Origin: Promicromonospora umidemergens
GTDB taxonomy: Bacteria; Actinomycetota; Actinomycetes; Actinomycetales; Cellulomonadaceae
Length of the DNA stretch: 64,000 nt
Direction of reading: 5' to 3'
Assembly: GCF_024171995.1 (NCBI RefSeq)
Contig: NZ_JAMTCT010000017.1
Coordinates: 62,001-126,000 of the forward strand
The translations under genes were made by a program, and so were the position numbers. The notes beneath the pieces were generated by a model, which made no database searches, was not told where the DNA came from, and worked only from the letters and a program-made list of their open reading frames with translations. Of the stretch, positions 29,985 to 53,006 are shown piece by piece (within the stretch, counting starts at the first letter, position 1; every line of letters begins with the position of its first letter).

Positions 29985-30002
29985 GCGCGGAGAGGATGGG
30001 AT

Positions 30003-39262: not shown

Positions 39263-39979
39263 TTGAACGTCGCGATCCCCAGCGTTGACCATCCGGTGAG
39301 CCCAGAAGGCCCGCGCAGGCCGCGGCTCCTGGTCTTCGACGTCAACGAGACCTTGTCGGACATGGAGCCGATCGCCGGGAGGTTCGAGGCGGTCGGCGCC
39401 CCGGCGCATCTGGCCAAAGCCTGGTTCGCGGGTCTGCTGCGTGACGGGTTCGCGCTCACGGTCGCCCAGGAGAACCCTTCCTTTGCGCAGCTGGGCGCCG
39501 AGGGACTCCGGTCGGCTCTGGCGGGGATGCCGTTGAACCGCCCGGTGGAGGAGGCCGTGGACCACATCATGGCCGGGTTCTCGAGGCTGACAGTTCATCC
39601 GGACGTACCCGGTGGTGTGCGGGCGCTGGCAGAGCTGGGCATCCGGCTGGTCACTCTGAGCAACGGGTCGGAGTCGGTCGCGCAGCGGCTGTTGTCCGAT
39701 GCGGGGGTGGGCGATGCCTTCGAGGATTTCCTGTCCGTGGAGCAGGCCGGCATCTGGAAACCGGCGCCCGGTGCCTATGCGTTCGCGCTGGAATCCTGCG
39801 GGGTGGACCCGATGGACGCGATGCTGGTGGCTGCTCATGCCTGGGACACCGACGGAGCGCACCGAGCCGGCTTGGCCGCCGCCTGGATCAACCGGACCGG
39901 CGGACGCTACCCGGAGTACTTCCGGCCGCCGGACCTGGAGGCTATCTCGCTGCTCCACCTGGCGGAACAGCTCCGCTAG
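39263..39979 (+). CDS. Haloacid dehalogenase-type HAD hydrolase
   Basis: A 238-residue HAD-family protein of the type II haloacid dehalogenase group. The nucleophile motif is FDVNETLSD, motif II is LVTLSNGS, motif III lies around KPAPGAYAFAL, and motif IV is VAAHAWDTDGAHRAGL, as in L-2-haloacid dehalogenases. Members split carbon-halogen or phosphate-ester bonds. TTG 39263 has GGAGGAG about 8 bases upstream. The gene is independent of the neighbouring sigma-factor locus. Confidence 0.87.
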   Translation: MNVAIPSVDHPVSPEGPRRPRLLVFDVNETLSDMEPIAGRFEAVGAPAHLAKAWFAGLLRDGFALTVAQENPSFAQLGAEGLRSALAGMPLNRPVEEAVDHIMAGFSRLTVHPDVPGGVRALAELGIRLVTLSNGSESVAQRLLSDAGVGDAFEDFLSVEQAGIWKPAPGAYAFALESCGVDPMDAMLVAAHAWDTDGAHRAGLAAAWINRTGGRYPEYFRPPDLEAISLLHLAEQLR

Positions 39980-40135: not shown

Positions 40136-40195
40136 ATGCTGATCGGAATGCCTGCTGACACCGGCTGCCGCGCCGTCCTCGTCGAGCAGCGGTGA
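40136..40195 (+). other. Leaderless 19-residue ORF overlapping the ECF sigma start
   Basis: -10 TAGGTT at 40124-40129 is followed after six bases by ATG 40136, so the mRNA would begin with this ORF (MLIGMPADTGCRAVLVEQR). Its stop (TGA 40193-40195) overlaps the sigma start GTG 40192. It may be a leader that couples translation into the sigma gene. Confidence 0.4.
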
Positions 40196-40770
40196 ACCGG
40201 GCCGGGAACGCTGCCCTGCCCGACGCCGTCCCGGACGGGCCACTGTCACCGTTCGACACGTACGTGGTGCCGGAGATACCGGTGCTCTACCGCGTCGGCC
40301 TCGCGCTGACGCACCAGCACGCCGACGCCGAGGACCTGGTCCAGGAGACCTTGATCCGTGCCTTCCGTGCGATCCACCGGTTCGATGGGGCTCATCCGCG
40401 GGCCTGGTTGCTGACGATCATGCGGCACACGCACCTCAACCGGCTCCGGGTCCGTAGTGCCGTGCTCCTCGCCGACGGTGACGGTGTGGGCGACGGCCTG
40501 GACCGGGTCGGCCCGCCGGTACCGGCGGCGGAGGACGTCGTGGTCAGTGGTCTCTTCGAAGCGGCCACGGAGAAGTCGCTGGCGGCACTGTCGGACAAGC
40601 ACCGGCGGGTCGTGCAGCTCGTCGACCTCGGGGGACTGTCTTACCAGGAGGCTGCGGACGAGCTCGGAGTTCCGCGTGGGACGGTGATGAGCCGGCTGCA
40701 CCGGGCTCGCGCGCGCATCCGGGCGGACCTCGCCACAGCGGGGCTGGCGCCCCGTAGGAAGGGGATGTGA
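40192..40770 (+). CDS. ECF-type RNA polymerase sigma factor
   Basis: A 192-residue group IV sigma factor. Region 2 is seen as HADAEDLVQETLIRAFRAIHRF (the -10 binding part), and region 4 as LDLGGLSYQEAADELGVPRGTVMSRLHRARARI (the -35 reading helix-turn-helix); the linker spans about 100-125. GTG 40192 overlaps a leaderless mini-ORF. Its stop overlaps the start of a zinc-finger anti-sigma gene, so the pair forms one unit. Target promoters are not evident within the window. Confidence 0.92.
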   Translation: MNRAGNAALPDAVPDGPLSPFDTYVVPEIPVLYRVGLALTHQHADAEDLVQETLIRAFRAIHRFDGAHPRAWLLTIMRHTHLNRLRVRSAVLLADGDGVGDGLDRVGPPVPAAEDVVVSGLFEAATEKSLAALSDKHRRVVQLVDLGGLSYQEAADELGVPRGTVMSRLHRARARIRADLATAGLAPRRKGM

Positions 40771-41024
40771 TGATCCGGATGTCGCTTCTTGAGTGCTATC
40801 ACGTGGCCAAGACGCTGCAGAGCTACCTCGATGGTGAGGCGGAGCCGGCCACGTCCGGCGTGGTCGCCGCACACCTCGAGACGTGCCGCCGCTGTGGCCT
40901 GGAGGCGGAGACGTACCTGGCGATCAAGGCGGCCCTCGCGGCAGGCAGCCAGGATCCGCCACCTGTCGACCCGGACGCCGTCGCCCGCCTCAAGCGATTC
41001 GCCGACGGGCTCTCGGCTTCGTAG
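40770..41024 (+). CDS. Zinc-binding anti-sigma factor (zf-HC2)
   Basis: An 84-residue protein. The zinc-binding anti-sigma motif is seen as HLETCRRC (Hx3Cx2C), preceded by helix YHVAKTLQSYLDGEAEPA. There is no membrane helix, so it is a soluble anti-sigma that holds the adjacent ECF sigma factor and could release it on oxidation or zinc loss, as in RsrA-type proteins (by analogy). ATG 40770 overlaps the sigma stop (TGATG). Confidence 0.87.
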   Translation: MIRMSLLECYHVAKTLQSYLDGEAEPATSGVVAAHLETCRRCGLEAETYLAIKAALAAGSQDPPPVDPDAVARLKRFADGLSAS

Positions 41025-41026
41025 CC

Positions 41027-42478
41027 CTACCTCTTGCTCCAGGCTCGCCGCAGTGCGACGAGCCCGGTCAGGAGCCACCGGGTCGTCGGTGCGGCGAGGC
41101 GGTCCTGGACCGCGGAGATCGCCGCGTTCCATACGCCGTCGCCATAGGTGGGGTACGGGTGGGTCGTGCCGGCGAGGTCCGTGGCGGTCAGCCTTTTCCG
41201 GACGGCGAGGGTGACCTCGGCGAGCGATTCCCCCGCGCGAGGACCGACGACGGTTCCGCCCAGGATCCGGCCGCGTGCCCCGAGGGCCAGGCGCGAGAAC
41301 CCATCGGTGCGGCCTTCTGCCTGCGCCCGGTCGACGTCCACGTGCTCGCGCGTGAGCGTCCGCGGGTCCGGACCGCCGTCGTGCGCCCAGGTCGGGGTGC
41401 CGACGGCGGCGACTTCCGGATCGGTGAACGTCACCCTTGGGACAGCCGAGGCGTCCACGCGCCTGCGCACGCCAAGGACGGCGTTGCTCGCCGCGAGGCT
41501 GCCGTGCACACCGGCGACATGCGTGAACTGGGGATGCGGTGTGACGTCCCCCGCGGCCCAGATCCGCGCGCTGGAGGTGCGCAGCTGCGCGTCGACGGTC
41601 ACGTACCCCTTCGGGTCGACGTCGACGCCGGCGGCGTCCAGCCCGAGTCCGCCGGATCCGGGACGGCGTCCTACCGCGACGAGCAGGGCGTCGTAGGAGA
41701 CCTTGCGCTCGCCCGCGCCGTCGTCGACCACGAGCGTGCCGGCGGAACCCGGCTGCCCGTGGGCGGTGACCGCCTGGTGGCCGACCAAGACGTCGACGCC
41801 GTCGTGCACGAGCGCCGCGTGGACCAGTGCCGCAGCGTCCGGATCCTCGCGCGGCAGCAGGCGGGGCGCCATCTCGACGAGGGTCACGTGGGAGCCGAGC
41901 CGGGCGAACGCCTGACCGAGCTCACAACCGATGCTGCCGCCGCCCATGACGGCGAGGCGGCGGGGGAGCGTGTCGAGATCCCAGACGGAGTCGCTGGTCA
42001 GTGGTTCGGCCTCGGCCAGCCCGCGGACCGGGGGTATCGCGGGCTGCCCGCCCGTCGCGATGAGCGCCTGGTGAAAGCTGGTCCGGTGGCCATCGACGTC
42101 GACGGACGTGGGGCCGGTGAACACCGCGTCGCCCTGGATGACGTGCACCCCCGCCGCCGTCAGCGCCTCGGGTGTGTCCTGTGGCTCGATCGCCGCGATC
42201 GCCGAGCGCACGTGGCGCATCACCTCTGCGAAGTCCGACTCGACACCCGACACGTGCACGCCCAGTGTTGCCGCGCGGCGCGCCTCGGCAGCCCGGCCTG
42301 CGGCCGCGAGGAGCGCCTTGCTCGGCACGCATCCCGTCCAGAGGCAGTCTCCGCCGATGCGGTCCCGTTCGACGAGCGCCACCCGGGCACCGAGCCGTGC
42401 GGCGGTCTTGGCCGCCACGATCCCGGCGGTCCCCCCGCCGACGACGAGCAGGTCCCAGGGCTGGTGCGGTGCGGTCAC
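41027..42478 (-). CDS. Mercuric reductase-like FAD/NAD(P)-disulfide oxidoreductase
   Basis: A 483-residue class I flavoprotein. The FAD-binding VVGGGTAG lies near residue 12, the redox pair GGDCLWTGC holds Cys45 and Cys50, the NAD(P)-binding MGGGSIGCELGQAFARLG lies mid-protein, and the second FAD motif is IWAAGDVT. The C-terminal interface domain is present (VTFTDPEVAAVG), but no MerA-type cysteine pair ends the protein. GTG 42478 has GAGGAG at the right spacing; the longer frame from 42523 does not. It leads a flavoprotein/CDP-alcohol/TVP38 group on this strand. TVP38 and such flavoproteins are known to be linked or fused in some bacteria. Confidence 0.85.
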   Translation of the reverse strand: MTAPHQPWDLLVVGGGTAGIVAAKTAARLGARVALVERDRIGGDCLWTGCVPSKALLAAAGRAAEARRAATLGVHVSGVESDFAEVMRHVRSAIAAIEPQDTPEALTAAGVHVIQGDAVFTGPTSVDVDGHRTSFHQALIATGGQPAIPPVRGLAEAEPLTSDSVWDLDTLPRRLAVMGGGSIGCELGQAFARLGSHVTLVEMAPRLLPREDPDAAALVHAALVHDGVDVLVGHQAVTAHGQPGSAGTLVVDDGAGERKVSYDALLVAVGRRPGSGGLGLDAAGVDVDPKGYVTVDAQLRTSSARIWAAGDVTPHPQFTHVAGVHGSLAASNAVLGVRRRVDASAVPRVTFTDPEVAAVGTPTWAHDGGPDPRTLTREHVDVDRAQAEGRTDGFSRLALGARGRILGGTVVGPRAGESLAEVTLAVRKRLTATDLAGTTHPYPTYGDGVWNAAISAVQDRLAAPTTRWLLTGLVALRRAWSKR

Positions 42479-42646
42479 GTGTGGCTCCTCGTCATTCGAC
42501 CCGTCCTGGGCGGACGCGGTCACTGTGGTGGCAACCCGGTCCGGGCGGGCGCCGCTTCCATCAGATCGCGGTAGGAGTGCAGTCGCATGTGAGCAGTGGC
42601 GGGTTTGACGTCACGCTCGTACGACGGCTCAGGCCGGCAGGCTCGC

Positions 42647-43297
42647 TCAGTCCTCGGAACGCTCGGCACCGGCTGCGGGCGCACGCAGGATGCGGTATCC
42701 GGTCACCATGCGGTGGCTGCCGCTGAGCAGCACGAGACCGGCCCATACCCAGGCGACGGGGCCGGCGATGGCCGGCGCCAGGACCCAGAGGCTGTGCACC
42801 AGGATGGTCTCGGTGCCCTCGGCCAAGCCGCCGAGGAACGACAGGGACCGGCCGTCGTCCAGCCGCCGGCCGGTCCGTTCCGCGATCGAGGAGAACGCCA
42901 GGAACGCTGTGCCGTTGATGTAGTAGGCGAGCAGCACGGTCAGGAACGGCAGCACAGAGCCGCCCCAGCCGATCCCGACACCGAGCACGAAGGCGCCGTA
43001 GACCGTGAAGTCGGCGGTGATGTCGAGGAATCCACCGGCGTCGCCCGACGTCGTGCCCACACCACGCGCCCGGCGCCGGCGGGCCAGCGGTCCGTCCAGG
43101 CCGTCGGCGACGCGCGAGACCAGCCAGAGCACCAGCGCGACGGCCCACCAGGACAGCGCGGCGGCCCCTGCTGCCGCGAGGCCGAGGACGAGCCCTGCCA
43201 TGGTGACGCGGTCCGGCGTGATCCATTGCCGGTCGATCCGGGCGGCGACGGCGTCCAGGGGTCCGGCCAGCAGGTTCCGTACGGGAGCGTCGAGCAT
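42647..43297 (-). CDS. CDP-alcohol phosphatidyltransferase family protein (YnjF-like)
   Basis: A 216-residue membrane enzyme with about six helices. The CDP-alcohol phosphotransferase motif is seen as DGLDGPLAR at 65-73 and GFLDITAD at 89-96, retaining all catalytic Asp residues (65, 68, 92, 96). The spacing between AR and the second Gly is about 14 residues instead of the usual 8-9, an insertion in the cytosolic loop. Such enzymes join an alcohol to a CDP-activated lipid. ATG 43297 overlaps the VTT gene stop (TGATG) and has GAGGAG upstream. The E. coli counterpart by context is YnjF; the alcohol is unknown. Confidence 0.87.
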   Translation of the reverse strand: MLDAPVRNLLAGPLDAVAARIDRQWITPDRVTMAGLVLGLAAAGAAALSWWAVALVLWLVSRVADGLDGPLARRRRARGVGTTSGDAGGFLDITADFTVYGAFVLGVGIGWGGSVLPFLTVLLAYYINGTAFLAFSSIAERTGRRLDDGRSLSFLGGLAEGTETILVHSLWVLAPAIAGPVAWVWAGLVLLSGSHRMVTGYRILRAPAAGAERSED

Positions 43298-43980
43298 CAG
43301 GACTCCTCGGTGGAGACGGGCCGTGCGTCGGCATCGGCTTCCTTGTCGCGTCCGGAGTCGGTCCGCGAACGGCGTCGGGCCAGCACAGCACCGCCCACGC
43401 TGAGGACGAGCAGCGCACCGGCGGCCAGCAGGAACTGCCAGGCGCCGGGATCGGTCCCGTAGGCGCCGACCGCGACGTAGGCCACCGTGCCGGGCAGGAT
43501 CCCGACGGCGGTGGCGAGCAGGTAGGCGGTGAAGCTCACCGCCGTCAGCCCGCTGCCGTAGTTGATGGCGGTGAACGGGACCACGGGGATGAGCCGGGCG
43601 ACGAGTACAGCCAGGACTCCGTGTCGTCTGACGAGATCGTCGAGCCGGGCCAGGCGTCGCCCGGCGAGACGTGCCACGCCCTCGCGCCCCAGGGCACGGC
43701 CGAGCCAGAACGACGCGGTAGCCCCGAGCATCGCCCCGGTCCACACGAGCGCGATGCCCAGCGGGAGGCCGAAGGCCAGGCCCGCCGCGCCGGACAGGAC
43801 GTTCTTGGGCAGCAGGAGCAGCGTGGCGACCACGTAGCCAGCGATGAACAGGGCCGGCGCCCAGCCGCCGGCTGCCGCGACCTGACCGTGCAGCTCGGTC
43901 ACCGTGGGCCACGGAACGACGATCAGGAGCAGCACTCCGACGAGCAGGAGCAGCACGAGCCCGGCCAGACGTCCCCACAT
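43297..43980 (-). CDS. TVP38/TMEM64 (VTT/DedA-like) membrane protein
   Basis: A 227-residue membrane protein. It carries the VTT-domain core: GYVVATLLLLPKNVLSGAAGLAFGLPLGIALVW (first reentrant half) and ARLIPVVPFTAINYGSGLTAVSF (second, with conserved Arg and Pro). Homologues are proposed lipid scramblases or transporters. ATG 43980 fits a leaderless mRNA: -10 CATAAT (43993-43988) is followed by seven bases. The 20-base palindrome at 43992-44011 overlaps this promoter. It is coupled to the CDP-alcohol phosphotransferase and divergent from the ABC operon. E. coli YdjX/YdjZ are contextual relatives. Confidence 0.85.
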   Translation of the reverse strand: MWGRLAGLVLLLLVGVLLLIVVPWPTVTELHGQVAAAGGWAPALFIAGYVVATLLLLPKNVLSGAAGLAFGLPLGIALVWTGAMLGATASFWLGRALGREGVARLAGRRLARLDDLVRRHGVLAVLVARLIPVVPFTAINYGSGLTAVSFTAYLLATAVGILPGTVAYVAVGAYGTDPGAWQFLLAAGALLVLSVGGAVLARRRSRTDSGRDKEADADARPVSTEES

Positions 43981-43991
43981 GTTCATGATTA

Positions 43992-44011
43992 TGGAAGCCC
44001 GCGGGCTTCCA
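43992..44011. promoter_or_regulatory. 20-base palindrome between TVP38 and ABC operons
   Basis: The half-site TGGAAGCCCG is followed by CGGGCTTCCA, a perfect 20-base palindrome. It covers the edge of the TVP38 -10 box and the spacer, and lies about 60 bases before the ABC substrate-binding gene. It is a likely operator for both directions. No matching regulator gene adjoins it. Confidence 0.6.
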
Positions 44012-44072
44012 GTTGTGTTCCGTTTCCGACCGGCCAGTCTTGTGTGACCGGCACGACGACGAGAGGTATCGG

Positions 44073-45341
44073 ATGAGGCGCACGACGACCCGGAGAACGC
44101 GCGCACGAGCGCTGGGCACTCTGGCGACTGCGGCAGCGGTAGCACTCAGCGCCTGCGCGGCCCCCGTCAGCAACCGGACCGGCACCGCAGACGACGGGTA
44201 CGCCTCCTGGGAAGACGTCGCGGCCGACGCGCGCGGACAAGAGGTGTCGCTATGGATGTGGGGTGGCGACGAGAAGGGCAACGCGTACGTCGACGACGTG
44301 CTTGCCCCAGCTGCCGCCGACCAGGGCGTCACGCTGCGCCGGGTGCCGGTCGCCGATACCGCTGACGCCCTGAACCGCGTGGTGTCCGAGCTGCAGGCAG
44401 GGCAGGACTCCGACGGCGCCGTCGACCTGGTCTGGGTCAACGGCGAGAACTTCCGCACCGGGCAGCAGGCCGGGGCGTGGGAGTGCGGATGGACCGATCT
44501 GCTGCCCAACAGCGCGTACCTCGACCCGACGGACCCCCTGCTGGCCGAGGACTTCGGCACACCGGTCGAGGGCTGCGAGTCGCCCTGGCACAAGGCCCAG
44601 TTCGCCCTGGCCTACGACGCCGCTGACGTCCAGCACCCGCCCACGTCGCTCACCGAGCTGTTCGACTGGGCCCGTGCGCACCCCGGGCGCTTCACCTATC
44701 CGGCGCCGCCCGACTTCACCGGCTCCGCCTTCCTCCGCCAGAGCCTCTACGAGGTGACCGGTGGCCCGGAGCAGGTCCCGGCAGGCCCCGATGACGACGG
44801 CGCCGCAGGCGCCACCTCGGCGCTGTGGGCCGAGCTGGCCGACCTGGAGCCGTCCCTGTGGCGCGGTGGTGACACGTACCCCCGGGATGCCGCCGCGCTG
44901 GACGACCTGTTCGCCGGTGACCAGGTGGACTTCACGATGACGTACGGTCCCGCTACGCTCGACGCCCGGGTCGCCGACGGCACGTTCCCGGAGACCACCC
45001 GAGTGCTCACCCTCGACGACGGGACCCTCGGGAACGCGAGCTTCCTGGCGATCCCCGCCAACGCCGCTCACCAGGCGGGCGCGATGGTCGTCGCGGACCT
45101 CGCTCTGGCGCCCGAACAGCAGCTCGCCAAGGCCGACCCCGCCGTGTGGGGCCAGTACCCCGTGCTCGAACTGGACCGCGTGCCGGACGACCTCGCCGAG
45201 CAGTTCGCCGACCTGGCGCCGTCCACGGTCGTACCGCCGTTCGACGAGCTGTCCCGTGGAGCCGATCCAGAGCTCTCGGCCGACTGGGTCGCGCCGCTCG
45301 AACGCGGCTGGCGCGACAACGTGCTGACCGGTCAGCGTTGA
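44073..45341 (+). CDS. ABC importer substrate-binding lipoprotein, YnjB-like
   Basis: A 422-residue lipoprotein (lipobox LSAC near residue 28). The mature part resembles extracellular solute-binding proteins of the YnjB kind: VSLWMWGGDEKGNAYVDDVLAPAAADQGVTLRRVPV, DLVWVNGENF, and the later DFTMTYGPATLDARV and FLAIPANAAHQAGA. It should bind a small ligand outside the membrane and deliver it to the two permeases downstream. ATG 44073 follows GAGAGG. The ligand of YnjB-type systems has not been defined to my knowledge; thiamine, polyamine or phosphonate-like compounds are possible by fold. Confidence 0.82.
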   Translation: MRRTTTRRTRARALGTLATAAAVALSACAAPVSNRTGTADDGYASWEDVAADARGQEVSLWMWGGDEKGNAYVDDVLAPAAADQGVTLRRVPVADTADALNRVVSELQAGQDSDGAVDLVWVNGENFRTGQQAGAWECGWTDLLPNSAYLDPTDPLLAEDFGTPVEGCESPWHKAQFALAYDAADVQHPPTSLTELFDWARAHPGRFTYPAPPDFTGSAFLRQSLYEVTGGPEQVPAGPDDDGAAGATSALWAELADLEPSLWRGGDTYPRDAAALDDLFAGDQVDFTMTYGPATLDARVADGTFPETTRVLTLDDGTLGNASFLAIPANAAHQAGAMVVADLALAPEQQLAKADPAVWGQYPVLELDRVPDDLAEQFADLAPSTVVPPFDELSRGADPELSADWVAPLERGWRDNVLTGQR

Positions 45342-45351
45342 GCGGGCGCAG

Positions 45352-46200
45352 ATGAACAGGCGGACGGCCTCCTCCCGGCGGGCAGCGCTCCTCGTCCTGC
45401 CGGCACTCCTGCCCACGGTGCTGGTGCTCGGCGCAGGGCTCGGCGCCGCCGTCATCCAGAGCCTGGGCCTCCTCCCGCTCGTCGGGAAACCCGAGCTGTC
45501 CTCGGCCGCCTACCGTGCCCTCGTCGTGGACGACGTGCTGACCGGCCTGGGAGTCAGTGTCGCGATCGCGGCGGCCAGCACGTCGCTCGCGCTACTGGTC
45601 GGGGCGACGGCCGCCGTGCTCGTCCAGCGCTCGCGGATCGGTGGCCTCGCAGCGGTCGCCGCGGCAGTGGTCCCGATCCCGCACCTGGTCGGCGCGGCCA
45701 CCGTCGGCCTGCTGCTCGCCGACTCCGGGCTCGTCGCGCGGCTCGTCGGAGCACAGCCGGGCACCTTCCCCGCCCTGGTCGGCGGGCCGTGGTGGGTGGC
45801 GGTGGTCCTCGAGCTCGCCTGGAAGGAATCAGCGTTCGTCGCCGTCGTCGTGCTGAGCTCGCTCGCCACGACCGAGCGCGACCTCGACGAGGCCGCGGCC
45901 GGCCTGGGCGCGGGGCCCTGGCAGCGGCTACGCCGCGTCACCCTGCCCCTGGCGGCACCCGCGCTCGTCGTCTCGGGCACCATCTCCTTCGCGTACGTCG
46001 TCGGCTCCTACGAGGTCGCCTGGCTCCTCGGACGCACCTACCCGGAACCGCTGGCCGTCCTGGCATTCCGACTGTTCTCCGACACCGACCTGACCATGCG
46101 CCCGCAGGCGCTCGCGGTCGCGGTACTCACGGTCGCCGTCGCCGCGGGCGCCCTGGTGGCCGGCGCGGCACTGCTCCGACGCGTGGCGGTGCTCCGATGA
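45352..46200 (+). CDS. ABC importer permease 1, YnjC N-half-like
   Basis: A 282-residue inner-membrane protein with about six helices. The coupling motif of importer permeases is visible near LDEAAAGLGAGPWQRLRRVTLPLAAPAL (EAA loop). It forms a heterodimer with the next permease. In E. coli ynjC encodes both halves as one protein; here the two halves are separate genes. The start is ATG 45352, 10 bases after the substrate-binding gene, and the stop overlaps the next gene by 4 bases. Confidence 0.85.
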   Translation: MNRRTASSRRAALLVLPALLPTVLVLGAGLGAAVIQSLGLLPLVGKPELSSAAYRALVVDDVLTGLGVSVAIAAASTSLALLVGATAAVLVQRSRIGGLAAVAAAVVPIPHLVGAATVGLLLADSGLVARLVGAQPGTFPALVGGPWWVAVVLELAWKESAFVAVVVLSSLATTERDLDEAAAGLGAGPWQRLRRVTLPLAAPALVVSGTISFAYVVGSYEVAWLLGRTYPEPLAVLAFRLFSDTDLTMRPQALAVAVLTVAVAAGALVAGAALLRRVAVLR

Positions 46201-47048
46201 CCGCGCTCGTGACGCCCGCCCCTCATGGTCGCTCGGGTCGCCGCGTCCTGCGTGCACGGGTCGAAGCCCGTGCGGCGAAGTGGGGTCGTCGCGCCGGGAC
46301 CGTCGCCGTCACCGCCCTCCTGCTGGTCCCTTTCCTGCCGATCCTGCTCTGGGCGTTCGCGGACCGGTGGCCCTACCCGGAGCTCGCTCCCACCGTCTGG
46401 GGCGTGGGTGGCTGGCTGACCGCGACCGCCCAGGGCGCCTGGCCCGCGCTGACCCGCTCGCTCCTGCTCGGACTGACCGTCAGCGCCATCGCCACGCCCC
46501 TCGGCGCGATGGCCGGCCGCGCCCTGGCGCGGGGCCGCGTCCCGTACGGCAAGATGGTCACCGCGCTCCTGCTCGCCCCGGTCGCGGTCCCACCGTTCGC
46601 CGTCACGATGGGGCTGACCACGGTGGCGCTACGACTCGGCGTCCCCGGAGTGGTCGCGCTGGTCGCCGTGCTCGTCGTCGCGGCCGTCCCATACACCACC
46701 TACATCATGCGCGCCGCCTACGCCGGGTACGACGAAGGCTTCGAGGAGACGGCACGCACCCTCGGCGCAGGGTCTAGGCACGTCCTCCTTCGCGTGCACC
46801 TGCCCCTGGTCGCACCTGCCCTCGCCGCGGCAGCCTTCCTCGCCTTCCTCGTCGGCTGGAGCGACTACGTGGTCACCCTGCTCATCGGCGCCGGCCGGAT
46901 CGTCAGCCTCCCGCTGCTCCTGGGAGCCTCGGCCTCAGCCAGCGGCAACGACCCGACCATCGCCGTCCTGGCCCTGCTGGCCACGATCCCACCCGTGCTC
47001 CTCCTGACCGCGGTGACCGTACTGTCCAGACGAAGGACGCAGCGATGA
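46197..47048 (+). CDS. ABC importer permease 2, YnjC C-half-like
   Basis: A 283-residue membrane protein with about six helices. The EAA loop is seen as FEETARTLGAGSRHVLLRVHLPLVAPAL. The first 35 residues form a basic cytosolic extension (RSGRRVLRARVEARAAKWGRR). It pairs with the preceding permease. It overlaps both neighbours by 4 bases, showing a tightly coupled operon. ATG 46197 is chosen, since the longer frame overlaps the first permease. Confidence 0.85.
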   Translation: MTALVTPAPHGRSGRRVLRARVEARAAKWGRRAGTVAVTALLLVPFLPILLWAFADRWPYPELAPTVWGVGGWLTATAQGAWPALTRSLLLGLTVSAIATPLGAMAGRALARGRVPYGKMVTALLLAPVAVPPFAVTMGLTTVALRLGVPGVVALVAVLVVAAVPYTTYIMRAAYAGYDEGFEETARTLGAGSRHVLLRVHLPLVAPALAAAAFLAFLVGWSDYVVTLLIGAGRIVSLPLLLGASASASGNDPTIAVLALLATIPPVLLLTAVTVLSRRRTQR

Positions 47049-48151
47049 GCGCAACCCTGACCATCACCGGACTCACCCGGTGGTACCCCGCCACCGGCGC
47101 CCCCACCCTCGACGCCATCGACCTCACCGTCCCCGCCGGAGGCTGCGTGGCACTCCTCGGTCCCTCCGGATCCGGCAAGAGCACCGCACTGCGTCTCGTC
47201 GCCGGACTCGACACCCCCGATTCCGGCACGGTGCTCATCGACGGACGCTCCCTTGCCGGCATCCCGCCCGAACTACGGCACACCGTCCTGGTCTTCCAGA
47301 GCCCTCGCCTGTTCCCGCACCTGAACGTGCTCGACAACGTCGCCTTCCCGCTCCTCGTCGCCGGCTCACCCCGCGGCCAGGCCCGCGACGACGCCGCACA
47401 GTTCCTCGACCTCGTCGGCCTGACCTCCCTCGCACACCGCCGCCCCGCAACCTTGTCCGGAGGACAGGAACAGCGCGTCGCCCTGGCACGCGCGCTCGCC
47501 GCCCGTCCGGACGTGCTGCTGCTCGACGAGCCGTTCAGCGCGCTCGACCCCACGGTCCGGGCCGAGATGCATACCCTGCTGGTCGAGCTGCGGGCTGCCG
47601 TCGAGCCGACGATCCTGCTGGTCACGCACGACCAGAACGAGGCGGCGGTGCTCGCCGACACCACCGCGGTCCTGCTCGATGGCCGCATCGCGCAGCACGA
47701 CCGCATCGATCAGCTCTACGCACGGCCGGTCTCGCTGGCAGTGCACGGCTTCCTCGGCGGGCGCAACGCCGTCGCCGGGCGGGTGGACGACGGCGCGCAC
47801 CACTCCAGGCTCGGGACGCTAGAGCTCCCGGCCGACGTCGTGGTACCTCGAGGACCGGCCACCCTGGTCGTCCGCCAGGAGGCTATCAGGCTGGTGCCGA
47901 CCGACCGCCGGGCGGACCTGCTCGGGGTGGTGTCAGCGGTGACCGCCAGGGGCGCCCGGGCACTGGTCGAGGTGACGGTCGCCGGGATGAGCCTGACCAC
48001 GGAGTCCGGACCGGGGGAGAGGTTCGAGCCGGGGGACCGGGTGGGGGTCGTCCTGCCGCTCGATCAGCGGCACGCAGTGCCGCCCGCTACGTCGATGCGT
48101 TCGGGAGAGTCGGGTTCTTCTCGGGATGTCTTACGGCGGGCGACCACGTGA
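47045..48151 (+). CDS. ABC importer ATPase, YnjD-like
   Basis: A 368-residue nucleotide-binding protein. Walker A GPSGSGKST lies at 39-47, the Q-loop near FQSPRLF, the signature LSGGQ at 137-141, Walker B at LLLLDEP, and a switch His in LLVTHDQNEA. The C-terminal part from about 270 carries a TOBE-like regulatory barrel (VVPRGPATLVVRQEAIRLVP), as in MalK/PotA-type importers. It completes the four-gene importer. Its end overlaps the convergent radical SAM gene by 21 bases. Confidence 0.9.
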   Translation: MSATLTITGLTRWYPATGAPTLDAIDLTVPAGGCVALLGPSGSGKSTALRLVAGLDTPDSGTVLIDGRSLAGIPPELRHTVLVFQSPRLFPHLNVLDNVAFPLLVAGSPRGQARDDAAQFLDLVGLTSLAHRRPATLSGGQEQRVALARALAARPDVLLLDEPFSALDPTVRAEMHTLLVELRAAVEPTILLVTHDQNEAAVLADTTAVLLDGRIAQHDRIDQLYARPVSLAVHGFLGGRNAVAGRVDDGAHHSRLGTLELPADVVVPRGPATLVVRQEAIRLVPTDRRADLLGVVSAVTARGARALVEVTVAGMSLTTESGPGERFEPGDRVGVVLPLDQRHAVPPATSMRSGESGSSRDVLRRATT

Positions 48152-49558
48152 CGGGCTCGAGGTGACGTCCACCAGGGGCAGGAGCCGCCGCAGCGCGACG
48201 TTCTCGCCCGGATCGAGCACGCCGTGCTGGACGCAGGCCGGGACCAGCCGGTCGGTGTCGGGGTGGGCCATGGTGTACGAGCAGGCACGGAGCCGGTCCT
48301 GCGTGGCGCGCACGCCCGGGTCGGCGCTGAGGACGCCCTGTTCAAGCAGCTCCCAGGCGGGCGCGACGTCGGCGGCGTCCATGAAGTTGTGCATGACGAA
48401 GGTCAGCGGGCGTGGCAGGTTCCGCGCGACGGCGACCGGCCCGCCCGAGCGTCGCACCGCACGCCGGGCCCAGCCCAGAGCTCCCGCGAAGAGAGCCGGG
48501 TTGGCGGCGAGGGCGCGCAGCAGCCGGGGTACGAGCACTCGGGCAGGCGTCGCGCCGACCTGCATCCCGCCCAGGCGCTCGAGGAAGGCGTCCCGGACCG
48601 CCAGGTCCGCTGGGTCGGTGTCGTCCAGGAGCGGCACCCAGCGCTCGCCGACGCGCCACCCGTAGGCCGTGCGGTTGCATCGTGGGTCGCCGAACTGCAG
48701 TACCTGCCAGGGCAAGCGCGCACCAGCTCCGCGCTCGATCTCGGACCAGACGGCGTCCGGTGTCGCGGAGCGCAGGTCCTCGCGCCACCGGCGCGAGTCC
48801 CCGAGGTAGGCCGCGGGCTGGAACGAGAGCATCGAGAACCCGAGGGGCCGGCACTGCCGCACGACGTCGGCCACCTCGTCGAGGTTCGCCGGGGTGACAG
48901 TCATGTTGTGAGCGAGGTAGGACCGTACCCCGAGGTCGCGCCGGAGCCGGCTGAACATCTCCGTGAACTCGCGGCGGAACGGCGCGAGCTCGGCCTCGCT
49001 GCGCGGCCGTGGCAGGCCGCGGCGACCTCGCATGAGGGAGTCGAAGTGCCCGGCGAAGGACACCCGAGGAAGCCGCACGGTGCCGTCGGCGGACCGGACG
49101 AGCTTGCGCAGGTAGTCCTCGTCGACGTCGCCGTGGGTGAAGCTCATCGGCTCCCGACCGTGCCGGCGCATGATCAGCAGCGCCTCGGCGTGCGTGTCGG
49201 GGTCGAGCAGCGTGACCTCACCGCCGATGAGCTGGGTGTGGGCCCTGGGGCCGCGCTCCCGCCGGAGGTAGGCGAGCTGTGCCTCGACGTGGGTCAGCGT
49301 GTGCTCGGCGTCGATCCGAACCTTGTTGGCGTCCGCCGAGTGGTAGCAGGGGGTGCAGGTCAGGTTGCACTTCGGGAAGACGCCGTGCGTGCCTTCGCAC
49401 CCCACGGCGTGCCGGCCGAGCAGCTGAGCAGGTGTGCGGACGTCTTCGGGCAGCCTGGCCCACCGCTCGGCCAGGACTGCTCGGCTCTCCACCGATACCG
49501 GGCGCGTGCTGGTCCACCAGTGGGCGAGCCGATCGAGCAGGGAATCCCGGTCGGTCAT
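48131..49558 (-). CDS. Radical SAM enzyme
   Basis: A 475-residue protein. The iron-sulfur cluster motif CNLTCTPC provides Cys64, Cys68 and Cys71 (Cx3Cx2C), followed by YHSADANKV and the GGE-like segment LIGGEVTLLDPD. The remainder forms a partial barrel and a C-terminal extension of about 150 residues with a few cysteines (CNRTAYGW, CSYTMAH, CVQHGVL) that might hold a further cluster. Radical SAM chemistry here could be methylation, ring closure or bond formation on a lipid or small molecule. It lies 69 bases after a SAM methyltransferase in the same direction and converges on the ABC ATPase. ATG 49558. Confidence 0.87.
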   Translation of the reverse strand: MTDRDSLLDRLAHWWTSTRPVSVESRAVLAERWARLPEDVRTPAQLLGRHAVGCEGTHGVFPKCNLTCTPCYHSADANKVRIDAEHTLTHVEAQLAYLRRERGPRAHTQLIGGEVTLLDPDTHAEALLIMRRHGREPMSFTHGDVDEDYLRKLVRSADGTVRLPRVSFAGHFDSLMRGRRGLPRPRSEAELAPFRREFTEMFSRLRRDLGVRSYLAHNMTVTPANLDEVADVVRQCRPLGFSMLSFQPAAYLGDSRRWREDLRSATPDAVWSEIERGAGARLPWQVLQFGDPRCNRTAYGWRVGERWVPLLDDTDPADLAVRDAFLERLGGMQVGATPARVLVPRLLRALAANPALFAGALGWARRAVRRSGGPVAVARNLPRPLTFVMHNFMDAADVAPAWELLEQGVLSADPGVRATQDRLRACSYTMAHPDTDRLVPACVQHGVLDPGENVALRRLLPLVDVTSSPSRGRPP

Positions 49559-49627
49559 GTCTTCGTCCTCTCGTCACGGTGTCCGATGAGCTCGACGCAC
49601 GGGCAGGTTCGTGGTCTTCCGAACGTC

Positions 49628-50401
49628 TCATCCCGGCTTGCGGGCCACCACCCGGAGCAGCGGCAGCGGCAGCTCCCGCCCAGGTCCCGCGATCCCCGCC
49701 AGCGCGGCTTCGGCGGCCATCAGCTGTTCAGGGCTTCGGCCGGGTGTGTACAGGGACTGCACCGCGAGGCGTGCGTCAGAGGGTGTCCGTAGGTGGAACG
49801 GAAACCGATGGGTCGTGGCCTGCGTAACCACCAGACCTGCCTGTTCCAGGAGCGCGGTGATCCGACGTCGGCCGACGTGCTGCGGCATCGAGCCAGGCCC
49901 ACGGAGGTGAAGGCTGAGCAGGGCGAGCGGCCGTAGGTCCGTCAGGCGCAGCGGGGCCCGGGCGGGCAGGAGGAACGCGGCCGTTCCGTTCGGGCGCAGC
50001 ACCCGTGCCACCTCCTCGATCGCTGTGGCAAGAGGCTGGACGAGCATGAGCCCCATCGCGGAGACGACGACGTCGACCGAAGCGTCGGACACAGGCAGGG
50101 CGCGTGCATCGCCGGTTACCACTGGACCCCGGCCAAGGGCCTGGGCTGCTCGTACCTCGGCCTCGGAGAGGTCGACACCAAGATAGGTCTTGGCACCGGA
50201 CAGCCGTGGTCGCAGGGGAGCGTTGCCACAGGCGACGTCGAGCACGCTACCTGGCCGGTCAGCCAACGCGGCGGTGAGCCAGTCGTGGGGCGACCCGAGG
50301 AGAGGGTCGCAGGCGCGCTCGAACGCGGCCTCGGTGATGCCCGGTCGCTGTCCGTGGTAAGCCCCAAGATAGGCCGACCACGGTGTCGGGTCCGCGGTCA
50401 C
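49628..50401 (-). CDS. Class I SAM-dependent methyltransferase
   Basis: A 257-residue Rossmann-like methyltransferase. Motif I is VLDVACGNAPLRPRL, the acidic loop is GVDLSEAEVRAAQ, motif II is VTGDARALPVSDASVDVVVSAMGLML, and EEVARVLRPNGTAAFLLPA follows, as in ubiquinone/menaquinone-type (UbiE/COQ5-like) enzymes. GTG 50401 begins directly before the conserved WSAYLGAYHGQRPG; longer frames look non-coding. It precedes the radical SAM gene on the same strand, and the two enzymes could modify the same product. Confidence 0.83.
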   Translation of the reverse strand: MTADPTPWSAYLGAYHGQRPGITEAAFERACDPLLGSPHDWLTAALADRPGSVLDVACGNAPLRPRLSGAKTYLGVDLSEAEVRAAQALGRGPVVTGDARALPVSDASVDVVVSAMGLMLVQPLATAIEEVARVLRPNGTAAFLLPARAPLRLTDLRPLALLSLHLRGPGSMPQHVGRRRITALLEQAGLVVTQATTHRFPFHLRTPSDARLAVQSLYTPGRSPEQLMAAEAALAGIAGPGRELPLPLLRVVARKPG

Positions 50402-50481: not shown

Positions 50482-50758
50482 ACACTCGGCAAGAGACCGC
50501 ATCGACCGCAGCATTGGTTCCACCCTTCGTCGAGCTGCGCGGGCCGTCTCCGAGTCGGCAGAGGCTCCGATCGAGGTTTTGTACGGCGCCCGCTACCCCT
50601 GGAAACCCTTCCGCACGGCCGCCGATTCCACCGCCAGGGCCCGGAGCACGCTGAAGGACTGGCGACGGATCCCGCCGGGGCGCACGCACGCCCAGGTCGT
50701 GGAAGGGCTGGCTGATCGTGGTCAGCGGGGGAGGGGCGCTCCGGCTCAGTCGAACTGA
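50482..50758 (+). pseudogene. Coding-like fossil without a start codon
   Basis: After an in-frame stop near 50482, one frame on the plus strand runs to a stop at 50756-50758 with GC-rich third positions and no obvious start: SAEAPIEVLYGARYPWKPF then RTAADSTARARSTLKDWRR. It looks like the end of an unrecognised gene that has lost its beginning. It spans most of the 344-base gap between the methyltransferase start and the flavin monooxygenase stop. Confidence 0.35.
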
Positions 50759-51852
50759 CCCGGCGTGCCTGTCTGGTGTCCCTCGACGTGTGGGCACCGT
50801 GCCTGGATGGTCGCGGCCAGGTGGGCGGCGTCGCGCCAGACGAAGCCGAGCAGCGCCGAGCCCGTGGTGTGCATCCACGGTAGGCCTAGGAAGTAGAGGC
50901 CGGAGATGGTGCTGACGCCACGGTGGTGGGCGGGGCTGCCCGACTCGTCCAGGGCGCCCGGTATCTGGATCCACGAGAAGTCGGTGAGGAATCCCGTGGC
51001 CCAGACGACTGCGTCGACATTCAGAGTGGTGTCGTCGGCGAATCGGACCGACTCACCTTCGGCGTATGTGACCCGCTCGTGCAGTGCGACGCCGGCGGCG
51101 GTGAGCCGGCGCAGCGGTAGGCCGATCACGGTGCTGTCGTTGGCGCGCATCCGGCGACCGCGCCAGCTCTCGCCCGGGATGTCGAGGACACCGAGAACGT
51201 CCTGCCACCAGAAGAGGTCGCGGCCCAAGGGGCGCTGCGGCACGCTGACGTTGTGCTGACCCCGTGACAGGTGCACGTCACGGCCGCTGTGGACCAGCTC
51301 CAACGCGATCTGATAGCCCGAGTTCCCGCCACCGACAACCAGGATGGTCCCGTCGGGCAGCTGTGCCGGTCGCAGATACTCACTGCTGTGGAGCTGGGCG
51401 ACATGGCTCGAGAGGTCGTCGGATGACGCCGGGACGGACGGGGTCTGGAACGGACCAGTGGCCACCACGACGTGAGCGGCTTCCCATGGTCCCGCGGTCG
51501 TCTCCGCGCTGAACCCGCGTCCTGTCCGGCGCAGTGCCGTGACCCGCGTGCCGACCTCCACCGGGAGGTGCAGCTCAGCGGCGTACTCTTCGAGGTGGTG
51601 GGCGATCGTCTCCTTGCCGGGATAGGACCATGGCGGTACTGGCAGCGGCATACCGGGCAGGTGCGCGTAACGCGCAGGGGTGAACAGCCGCAGCGAGTCC
51701 CACCGCGATCGCCAGCTGTGCCCGACGCGGTCGCCCGCCTCCAGGATGGTGAACTCGCGGCCGGTGCGTCGCAAGCGCTCGCCCATCGACAGGCCTGCCT
51801 GGCCACCGCCGATGACCAAGACGTCGACCGTGCGGGTGACGGGGCGGGTCAC
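50746..51852 (-). CDS. Flavin-containing monooxygenase-like NAD(P)/FAD oxidoreductase
   Basis: A 368-residue flavoprotein of the CzcO/FMO-like group. The FAD motif VIGGGQAGLSMGERL lies near residue 14, the linker GHSWRSRWDSLRLFTPARY is typical of this group, and the NADPH-binding motif VVGGGNSGYQIALEL is mid-protein. ATGFLTDFSW is the late FMO/BVMO-type ATG motif. It may hydroxylate or oxidise a small organic substrate with NADPH and O2. The start is placed at GTG 51852; a TTG at 51915 is possible. It lies 150 bases downstream of an ECF sigma gene in the same direction. Confidence 0.85.
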   Translation of the reverse strand: MTRPVTRTVDVLVIGGGQAGLSMGERLRRTGREFTILEAGDRVGHSWRSRWDSLRLFTPARYAHLPGMPLPVPPWSYPGKETIAHHLEEYAAELHLPVEVGTRVTALRRTGRGFSAETTAGPWEAAHVVVATGPFQTPSVPASSDDLSSHVAQLHSSEYLRPAQLPDGTILVVGGGNSGYQIALELVHSGRDVHLSRGQHNVSVPQRPLGRDLFWWQDVLGVLDIPGESWRGRRMRANDSTVIGLPLRRLTAAGVALHERVTYAEGESVRFADDTTLNVDAVVWATGFLTDFSWIQIPGALDESGSPAHHRGVSTISGLYFLGLPWMHTTGSALLGFVWRDAAHLAATIQARCPHVEGHQTGTPGQFD

Positions 51853-52001: not shown

Positions 52002-52694
52002 TCAGCCACGGGACAACCCCAGCGATTCGCGCAGGCGGCCGAGGCCGTCGCGGATGTGGGCCGTGATGGTCGGGAGCCCTGCGTCGAGATGCTCGGCGAT
52101 CTCGCGGTAGGTGAGGCCGCCGTAGTATGCCTCGACGATGGCCGCGCGCTGTGTCGGGGCCAAGGAGTCGAAACAACGGCGCACGGATTCGCCCTCGGGC
52201 CGGCGCTCGAGCTTTTCGGCGGCGTAAGCATGAGCCACGTCCGCGACGGTCGCGTCGAGCTTGGGCTGGTTCATGTCCTGCCAGGACCGCTCGGCACGGA
52301 CGCGGTCCACCGCCCGCTGGCGAGCGATCATCGCGACCCAGGTGCTAGCAGAAGTGCGCGCGGGGTCGAACTGAGCAGCGGTCTGCCACACCTCCACCAT
52401 CACGTCCTGCGTCACCTCGGCAGCGTGATTCGGATCGGGCAGCACGCCGAGCGAGACGCCGAAGGCAAAAGGGGCCAGCGCGTCGTAGACCGGGCCGAAG
52501 ACCGCTGGGTCTGCGCCGGCGCACGCCACCAGGGCGGAGTCGACGGAACCCGGGGCCGGCGGGACCGGTGGCCTTCTGGATCGTTGCTTGACGCCCCGAG
52601 CGGTCCGTCGTACGGCCCGCCAGTACAGGCCTGTGAACTCGCTCAGGTCCGTCCTCCTCTTCGTGGCGGTGGGTGATGCTCTCCGATGCTGCAC
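52002..52694 (-). CDS. SigK-like ECF sigma factor
   Basis: About 230 residues. Region 2 is seen as FAFGVSLGVLPDPNHAAEVTQDVMVEVWQTAAQFD, and region 4 as FDSLAPTQRAAIVEAYYGGLTYREIAEHLDAGLPTITAHIRDGL. These match the SigK/ECF19 group. The anti-sigma RskA gene that usually follows is absent; a flavin monooxygenase follows instead. The start is uncertain: GTG 52694 is in frame, but GAGGAGGACGG lies just before a CTG at 52646 (LSEFTGLYW), which may be the true start. The longer frame to 52853 lacks coding support. Confidence 0.85.
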   Translation of the reverse strand: MQHRRASPTATKRRTDLSEFTGLYWRAVRRTARGVKQRSRRPPVPPAPGSVDSALVACAGADPAVFGPVYDALAPFAFGVSLGVLPDPNHAAEVTQDVMVEVWQTAAQFDPARTSASTWVAMIARQRAVDRVRAERSWQDMNQPKLDATVADVAHAYAAEKLERRPEGESVRRCFDSLAPTQRAAIVEAYYGGLTYREIAEHLDAGLPTITAHIRDGLGRLRESLGLSRG

Positions 52695-53006
52695 CGTCGA
52701 GCGAGACCGCGCATCTGGGCGAGCGCTCCGTTCCTGTCCGCCTCCGCCCGCCGCCCACCGGGGAGGAGCGAGGCCGTGGACGTCAACGAGCTGCTGGACC
52801 CTGCGCCCGAGCGGGGAACCGCCCAGGTCAGCCGTGTGTCGGTGTCGCGTCACACACGACCTGCTTCGGCGTCATACCGACCTCCATACGGAAGCGGTCA
52901 CCCTGGTGCCGTCGACTCCACCCGAGCTCGGCCGCCAGGAACCCGATCTCGACCTGACCGCGGTGAATGTGAGCCGCGAAGGGCTCGGTTCACATCCACC
53001 AGAGAT

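Follow-up and report, generated by a model that had tools for sequence, protein, structure and literature searches.

What is a YnjBCD-type ABC (ATP-binding cassette) importer doing beside a CDP (cytidine diphosphate)-alcohol phosphotransferase, a TVP38-type membrane protein and a flavoprotein in Promicromonospora umidemergens, and do these genes belong to one system? The window analyzed here is a stretch of 64,000 nucleotides (contig NZ_JAMTCT010000017.1, positions 62,001 to 126,000), and the sequence-only reading that preceded this work had singled out the locus as a possible lipid pathway. Comparison across genomes indicates that the cluster is almost certainly one functional module, found in several phyla. 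Its most probable role, to which we assign a probability of about 0.4, is a stress-induced pathway in which an imported alcohol-like solute would be built into a lipid by CDP chemistry and the product moved and redox-treated. The core of the cluster consists of the following genes.

41027–42478, minus strand: MerA/dihydrolipoamide-dehydrogenase-like flavoprotein, start assumed (core; Pyr_redox_2, 213.2 bits)
42647–43297, minus strand: CDP-alcohol phosphotransferase, YnjF-like (core; PF01066, 28.5 bits against a cut-off of 22)
43297–43986, minus strand: TVP38/VTT-domain membrane protein (core; PF09335, 98 against 33.9)
44073–45341, plus strand: YnjB substrate-binding lipoprotein (core; NF008633/PRK11622, 464.8 bits against 203)
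45352–46200, plus strand: ABC importer permease 1 (core; BPD_transp_1, 46.2 against 26.4)
46197–47048, plus strand: ABC importer permease 2 (core; BPD_transp_1, 62.5 against 26.4)
47045–48151, plus strand: ABC importer ATPase with a TOBE domain (core; ABC_tran, 121.4 against 25; TOBE_2, 21.8 against 21)

All families named in the sequence-only reading lie at the positions it had given, in open frames with the expected matches, and its layout of two divergent transcripts with a converging radical SAM (S-adenosylmethionine) and methyltransferase pair is correct in strands and coordinates. It had counted eight genes, and the window holds nine: the seven above, the radical SAM gene and the methyltransferase gene. 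The divergent transcripts are separated by a gap of 86 bp, TVP38 starting at 43986 and YnjB at 44073. The end of the TVP38 gene overlaps the start of the phosphotransferase gene, both permease genes overlap the gene that follows them (permease 1/permease 2 and permease 2/ATPase), and the last importer gene runs 21 bp into the radical SAM gene that converges on it. Three neighbors on the left had gone unmentioned: a type II haloacid dehalogenase (HAD) gene, an extracytoplasmic function (ECF) sigma factor gene and a zinc-finger anti-sigma gene. Rfam and tRNA scans of the window returned no matches.

To count neighborhoods, we used 80 YnjB loci, the best 80 of 578 confirmed candidates fetched with an eight-protein YnjB alignment and thus biased towards the query. 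Profiles made from the window, Escherichia coli and plasmid genes were run on frames of at least 80 residues in these loci, in 30 kb of the window and in seven annotated records, and the CDP-alcohol phosphotransferase, TVP38 and the flavoprotein were counted as partners. The phosphotransferase is present in 34 of the 80 loci, TVP38 in 30 and the flavoprotein in 29; at least two partners occur in 31 and all three in 23. The dependence on distance is sharp: among the 54 loci spanning at least 19 kb, the phosphotransferase lies within 6 kb of YnjB in 29 and only at 6–10 kb in none, with corresponding values of 26 and 0 for TVP38 and 24 and 1 for the flavoprotein. Loci with all three partners span Actinomycetota (Rhodococcus, Streptomyces, Salinispora, Kineosporia, Arthrobacter, Ornithinimicrobium and a Thermoleophilaceae genome), Bacilli and Chloroflexota (Planococcus, Planomicrobium, Chengkuizengella, Bacillus, Salipaludibacillus and a Chloroflexi genome), and the annotated records extend the set to Metabacillus and to enterobacterial plasmids. 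Gene order varies between lineages, and the genes interleave in loci L136, L142 and L143. The importer and its three partners thus recur together in several phyla and in many gene orders, an outcome in favor of the sequence-only reading.

The background in the window's own genome (6.6 Mb, the cluster included) is low, with four matches to PF01066 and five to PF09335, four of the latter over the cut-off. Phosphotransferase paralogues outside the cluster score 54.5, 42.2 and 25.1 bits with the cluster profile, against 253.6 for the cluster gene; TVP38 paralogues score 50.5, 30.2 and 22.6 bits against 199.2, and one weak VTT match gives no score with the cluster profile at all. Pairwise distances between YnjB, flavoprotein, phosphotransferase, TVP38 and radical SAM proteins correlate with r of 0.61–0.86 over 11–47 loci, a range in which the common descent of the genomes is uncontrolled; locus L133, an apparent duplicate of L037, was excluded from this mirror-tree test. 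Chance adjacency would fit the absence of YnjB and of the radical SAM gene from all 12 other genomes of the genus that were searched. In view of the recurrence in many genera of several phyla, the distance dependence, the low background and the co-divergence, we reject the idea that these genes are neighbors in this genome only and regard chance as having next to no probability. The same families standing together in very different bacteria mark them as parts of one machine. Probably the cassette reached this genome in one piece, or it was retained where relatives lost it: YnjB occurs in 2 of 59 relatives, and the second copy, 66% identical and from another family of the order, has the phosphotransferase, TVP38, flavoprotein and sigma genes nearby and no radical SAM gene.

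The flavoprotein had been called mercuric-reductase-like. The resemblance is real, in that the protein shares the Pyr_redox fold and the redox CxxxxC motif with MerA and dihydrolipoamide dehydrogenase, but it fails the MerA model TIGR02053 (377.7 against 454.45) and also stays below the lipoamide dehydrogenase cut-off (338.8 against 408.8). CxxxxC is kept in 40 of 41 aligned rows, some loci giving more than one row. By pattern, an H-x-YPT tail is found in 33 of the 41, at the place where the usual MerA and lipoamide dehydrogenase enzymes carry a His-Pro-Thr base. In plasmid pKP403-1 a single protein of 714 residues joins a VTT domain (68–184) to a Pyr_redox flavoprotein (239–685), which is good evidence that TVP38 and the flavoprotein function jointly; the remaining profiled frames contained no further fusion of this kind. 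The fusion lies in a 7.3-kb stretch with a second flavoprotein, YnjBCD and the phosphotransferase. Matches of at least 99% identity to this stretch occur in 24 plasmid records from Klebsiella, Salmonella, Providencia, Escherichia and Citrobacter, and 21 of these cover 80% or more of it; among 5426 complete E. coli genomes, three have a match, located on plasmids. It adjoins a recombinase and a Tn3-family transposase and is accompanied by DUF2282, MbnB-type, DoxX, sigma, carboxymuconolactone-decarboxylase-family and type II HAD genes. The transposon cargo therefore shares with the window the flavoprotein, TVP38, YnjBCD, the phosphotransferase, a sigma factor and the type II HAD; the fusion, the second, TIGR03169-like flavoprotein and the AhpD-like protein are its own, and radical SAM and methyltransferase genes are not annotated in it. 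In one such record (L173, NZ_CP089960.1, 144113–173204), a DUF2282/MbnB-type RiPP (ribosomally synthesized and post-translationally modified peptide) gene set stands beside the fusion in a Tn3-family transposon-like region; several listed sources of plasmids of this type are milk, mastitis, veal or cattle.

Three further features of the window bear on its regulation.

40192–40770, plus strand: ECF sigma factor (TIGR02937, sigma70-ECF, 78 bits against 42.9)
40767–41024, plus strand: zinc-finger anti-sigma factor of 85 residues with HLETCRRC (Hx3Cx2C) (zf-HC2, 31 bits against 22.2)
43993–44021, plus strand: putative ECF promoter GGAAG-N19-GTTCC, 51 nt before the YnjB start (pattern match)

The sigma70-ECF and zf-HC2 genes are adjacent and overlapping, which places them among the ECF sigma/zinc-finger anti-sigma pairs, and the anti-sigma gene ends 2 bp from the flavoprotein gene. 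An ECF sigma homologue is present in 10 of the 80 YnjB loci; within Actinomycetota, many loci have the sigma/anti-sigma pair together with a conserved promoter-like site. A small HL..C..C frame follows the sigma gene in seven of eight loci displayed (L011, L012, L015, L016, L018, L019 and L044), and L047 reads HTHLCPKC. The pair resembles SigR/RsrA-type systems in combining an ECF sigma factor with a zf-HC2 protein bearing Hx3Cx2C, and the GGAAG-N19-GTTCC site resembles their GGAA...GTT-like promoter; the window's sigma factor does not reach the actinobacterial SigH model (89.9 against 251.55). The site is the sole match in the 64 kb (0.12 expected), and a pattern one base longer has nine matches in the whole genome. 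Forty-eight loci were scored for a like site upstream of YnjB, nine with a sigma score of at least 170 and 39 without; loci were left out if the anchor motif was missing or if their upstream DNA was short or a duplicate, and L012 has the site and was unscored. The site is found in seven of the nine sigma-bearing loci, the window included, versus none of the 39 others. Among GC-rich loci without sigma, it is found in none of 18 (Fisher p 4e-5 versus the sigma-bearing loci; 0.012 expected by shuffling). Such sites are also present upstream of the sigma gene (L012, L015), the flavoprotein gene (L016, L044), a distant methyltransferase gene (L012) and a radical SAM gene (L134). In total, 35 matches occur in 613 kb versus about 7 by a uniform-base estimate, with near-palindromes counted on both strands, some matches intragenic and GC bias unmodelled. 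The co-occurrence of site and sigma gene suggests that the sigma factor most likely controls the cluster. The Bacilli and Chloroflexota loci that were fetched keep the set and give no good sigma match. A perfect 20-bp palindrome, TGGAAGCCCGCGGGCTTCCA, at 43992–44011 in the TVP38–YnjB gap overlaps the putative promoter and is absent from the other upstream regions inspected.

Outside this core lie three accessory genes.

39263–39979, plus strand: haloacid dehalogenase type II-like hydrolase (accessory; TIGR01428, 175.2 bits against 125.4)
48131–49558, minus strand: radical SAM protein of an unnamed family (actinobacterial accessory; PF04055, 26.8 bits, just under the cut-off of 29.5; CX3CX2C)
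49628–50401, minus strand: SAM methyltransferase (accessory; Methyltransf_11, 64.4 bits against 21.2)

Type II HAD homologues occur in 7 of the 80 YnjB loci and in the plasmid transposon. The sequence-only reading had counted the radical SAM and methyltransferase genes into the system; the radical SAM gene is indeed linked to the same partners in Actinomycetota, but both genes stand outside the cross-phylum core. Among relatives, the radical SAM gene is present in 1 of 59, the window's own genome. In the phylum it exceeds 300 bits in 10 of 396 genomes (any match in 13), and YnjB is present in 6 of these 10 versus 37 of the 396, the window's genome included. In five of the other nine genomes it lies near YnjB, the phosphotransferase, TVP38 or the flavoprotein (L133, L134, L135, L136 and L139), the sole partner in L135 being a flavoprotein about 5 kb away. 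In three (G195, G343 and G424) the partner cluster is on a different contig, and in G198 no partner was found in the 20 kb fetched around the gene and no YnjB. In the genomes of L134, L135 and L139, where the radical SAM gene is near the phosphotransferase, TVP38 or the flavoprotein, YnjB was not found. In L037 and L059 it directly precedes YnjB on the same strand, L037 and L133 being apparently one contig. CX3CX2C (C64, C68, C71) and C54, C294, C426 and C442 are invariant in all 18 aligned sequences. The window's protein stays below every NCBIfam cut-off, and matches of the other members to these families are weak; assignment as TrsS (27.1 against 490) or Tes (20.1 against 450) was rejected, as was ArsS, which matches none of the 18 at an E value of 0.01. 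The predicted fold (mean predicted local distance difference test score, pLDDT, 83.1) is closest to generic barrels such as SkfB, viperin-like proteins and DesII, and the sequence is weakly similar to a solved tetraether lipid synthase (E 0.26). By these sequence comparisons it represents an unnamed family that is linked to the module in Actinomycetota. Linkage of the methyltransferase is looser, with homologues over 300 bits in 3 of the 80 YnjB loci (L016, L018 and L044). Adjoining the radical SAM gene in L016 (245–3366), L135 (1883–4401) and L139 (7262–9624) are a metallophosphatase–radical SAM fusion with an Rv1681-like half and a TIGR04283 glycosyltransferase.

C28 of YnjB is invariant in the YnjB alignment. 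The closest matches to its predicted fold (mean pLDDT 90.7) are 4r6y, FutA1 and dinucleotide-, polyamine-, thiamine- and sugar-binding proteins; by sequence, a solved agropine permease is matched at E 0.0081. YnjBCD appears to lead at least two lives, as the YnjB tree places partner-bearing and partner-free loci each in several branches. In L033, L055, L058, L061, L076, L080, L085 and L090, partner-free YnjBCD has varying combinations of nucleoside hydrolase, nucleoside phosphorylase and DhaK/DhaL-type genes nearby; the hydrolase and the phosphorylase were each confirmed on one protein and DhaK was recognized by eye, and these neighbors suggest a different substrate. In L053 (9890–16318, Desulforhopalus) and L060 (2589–8980, Desulfobulbaceae), the order YnjB-C-C-D is directly followed by a kinase-like gene and by TIGR04282 and TIGR04283 glycosyltransferase genes. 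The kinase-like gene of L060 belongs to the APH family. Both arrangements are consistent with phosphorylation of a hydroxyl compound after import. On a Deinococcus taeanensis plasmid (L171, 8054–10140), a lysophospholipid acyltransferase gene overlaps the YnjB start.

CDP-alcohol phosphotransferases couple alcohols to lipids via CDP intermediates, and VTT-domain proteins include lipid carriers or scramblases. Taking the linkage as established, we infer the chemistry as follows. Stress would release the sigma factor from the Hx3Cx2C anti-sigma factor, and YnjBCD would import a small hydroxyl-bearing solute. The phosphotransferase would join this solute, or its phosphate, to a lipid via a CDP intermediate, and TVP38 would move the resulting lipid to the other side of the membrane. 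Held at TVP38, the flavoprotein could use NAD(P)H for a redox step that acts on the head group or its oxidized form, and in some lineages the radical SAM protein and the methyltransferase may tailor the lipid. This reading is drawn from the importer with its substrate-binding protein, the phosphotransferase motif (DxxDGxxAR...GxxxDxxxD, kept in 48 of 48 aligned rows, the window included), the TVP38-coupled flavoprotein, the sigma/anti-sigma pair, the kinase-like genes of L053 and L060, the Deinococcus acyltransferase, and the neighbors in L016, L135 and L139; the kinase-like and acyltransferase neighbors, counted for an alcohol and a lipid, are single cases. The simpler scheme of the sequence-only reading, import followed by CDP attachment, flipping and modification, is compatible with the data but omits the flavoprotein, the most tightly linked partner, and the sigma/anti-sigma control.

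Several observations weigh against the lipid pathway. The phosphotransferase reaches none of the specific NCBIfam subfamilies (archaetidylinositol phosphate synthase, phosphatidylcholine synthase and others; best 40.5 against 180), and TVP38 fails the model for UptA-type undecaprenyl phosphate transporters (NF052604, 25 against a cut-off of 250). The fold matches of YnjB cover so broad a group (iron, polyamine, dinucleotide, thiamine, sugar) that no single ligand class is indicated, and we know of no ligand, lipid or mutant lipid phenotype for the cluster. No partner at all is present in 41 of the 80 YnjB loci, some of which are short contigs, so YnjBCD by itself is no marker of the system; it is annotated without the partners on a Deinococcus plasmid and, in an incomplete annotation table, on a Sinorhizobium plasmid. 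A less biased sample of 30 loci, 29 from the 36 other YnjB-positive genomes of the phylum and one from a relative outside the sample (G043), has at least two partners in 13 (7 of 13 plus 6 of 17, the latter including G043), a count lowered by several short contigs; 14 of the 30 have no partner, ten of these coming from one family (f34). The promoter sites are pattern matches alone, and that of the window is not significant by itself, since 11 of 100 shuffles gave at least one match. Finally, the E. coli locus with the same importer lacks this flavoprotein and the radical SAM gene.

The partner-free loci would also be expected if a single stress regulon contained two modules, an importer for a nutrient and, unrelated to it, a set for membrane maintenance (phosphotransferase, TVP38 and flavoprotein), kept together by a common regulator or by mobile DNA. 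This view gains from the nucleoside- and DhaK-type neighbors of some of these loci, from radical SAM genes near partners without YnjB, from carriage on plasmid transposons and from the rarity of the cassette in relatives (YnjB in 2 of 59, radical SAM in 1 of 59). A shared regulator fits poorly with the Bacilli and Chloroflexota loci, which keep the set without a good sigma match, and separate modules fit poorly with the interleaving of the genes and the correlated partner distances; we consider this explanation unlikely. Somewhat better placed, although still rather improbable, is the main rival, redox or metalloid detoxification, in which TVP38 and the flavoprotein would form a membrane reductase acting on an oxidant or metal(loid), the importer and phosphotransferase would supply a protective ligand or lipid, and the radical SAM protein and methyltransferase would alkylate the element. 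In its favor are the RiPP set, the AhpD-like gene and the HAD-like gene beside the plasmid fusion, the MsrA and MsrB genes adjoining the cluster in Metabacillus and the zinc finger of the anti-sigma factor. The extra flavoprotein FAD2 resembles the SelD-associated TIGR03169 (284–287 bits against 310), a Klebsiella record has selD some 5 kb away from a gene set of the E. coli type, and TIGR04282/04283 genes, which NCBIfam calls arsenosugar-type, occur near radical SAM or YnjBCD genes in L016, L053, L060, L135, L139 and L150. Against this, the window's proteins match the MerA, ArsM and ArsO models and stay below their cut-offs, ArsS is unmatched among the 18 radical SAM members, and the window's genome has no TIGR04283 gene over the cut-off; the annotation tables name no arsenic, mercury or tellurium resistance gene, the loci having had no systematic search for such genes.

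A more specific form of the lipid pathway, which we hold to be quite improbable, likens its product to arsenosugar phospholipids: radical-SAM, methyl-transfer and flavin redox reactions would turn the imported precursor into the head group, the YnjF-type enzyme would be the lipid-forming step, TVP38 and the flavoprotein would be the export and redox unit, and E. coli would have a reduced, FNR-linked version. Arsenosugar-type biosynthesis (ArsM, ArsS, TIGR04282/TIGR04283) is similar in pairing radical SAM and methyltransferase proteins, with the glycosyltransferases standing by the radical SAM gene in L016, L135 and L139, but differs in that the window's radical SAM protein has no ArsS match. 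TIGR04283 gives 13 weak matches in the window's genome, none over the cut-off. It occurs in 31 of the 396 phylum genomes, 11 of the 37 with YnjB and 3 of the 10 with radical SAM; the association with YnjB is confounded because 10 of the 11 genomes come from one family (f34). Arsenosugar synthesis as a general function was rejected on these grounds. The portions of the arsenosugar literature that were searched name no genes for the lipid-forming step of arsenosugar phospholipids.

The comparison with E. coli ydjXYZ-ynjABCDEF, which the sequence-only reading had made, proved sound: alongside YnjBCD, the operon contains a CDP-alcohol phosphotransferase gene and two genes of the DedA family. It shares with the window the importer, the DedA/TVP38 family (two members in E. 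coli) and YnjF. It differs in having YdjY, YnjA (AhpD-like) and YnjE (sulfurtransferase), none of which gives a profile match in window positions 30001–60000, in having neither methyltransferase nor sigma pair, and in that YnjC is one long permease protein. In the parts of the literature available to us, ydjXYZ-ynjABCD is listed in the E. coli FNR regulon (PMC3688515), ydjX is among the targets shown to bind FNR (PMC2690998), YnjB is tabulated as the E. coli homologue of a polyamine-type binding protein (PMC9397018), YnjBCD is called uncharacterised (PMC9207381), and an ynjB mutant is among the hits of a ciprofloxacin-tolerance screen (PMC13131330). The portion of the open-licence PubMed Central literature that was searched, a corpus with subscription journals mostly outside it, yielded no paper giving a function for YnjBCD, YdjX/YdjZ or YnjF, although these come from the best-studied of bacteria, or describing the cluster. 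Viewed as a reduced form of the cross-phylum module, the E. coli genes would gain partners, a likely inducer logic and a testable operon in which simple genetics could lead to the substrate. Should the lipid pathway prove true, a further regulated route of lipid metabolism would be known, and bacterial TVP38 proteins would have acquired a role.

Two further genes lie just past the cluster. Downstream of the methyltransferase gene, positions 50746–51852 encode a flavin-containing monooxygenase (FMO)-like flavoprotein that resembles the MSMEG_0569 and ArsO families and falls under both cut-offs, and positions 52002–52853 hold a second ECF sigma-like gene near the cluster.

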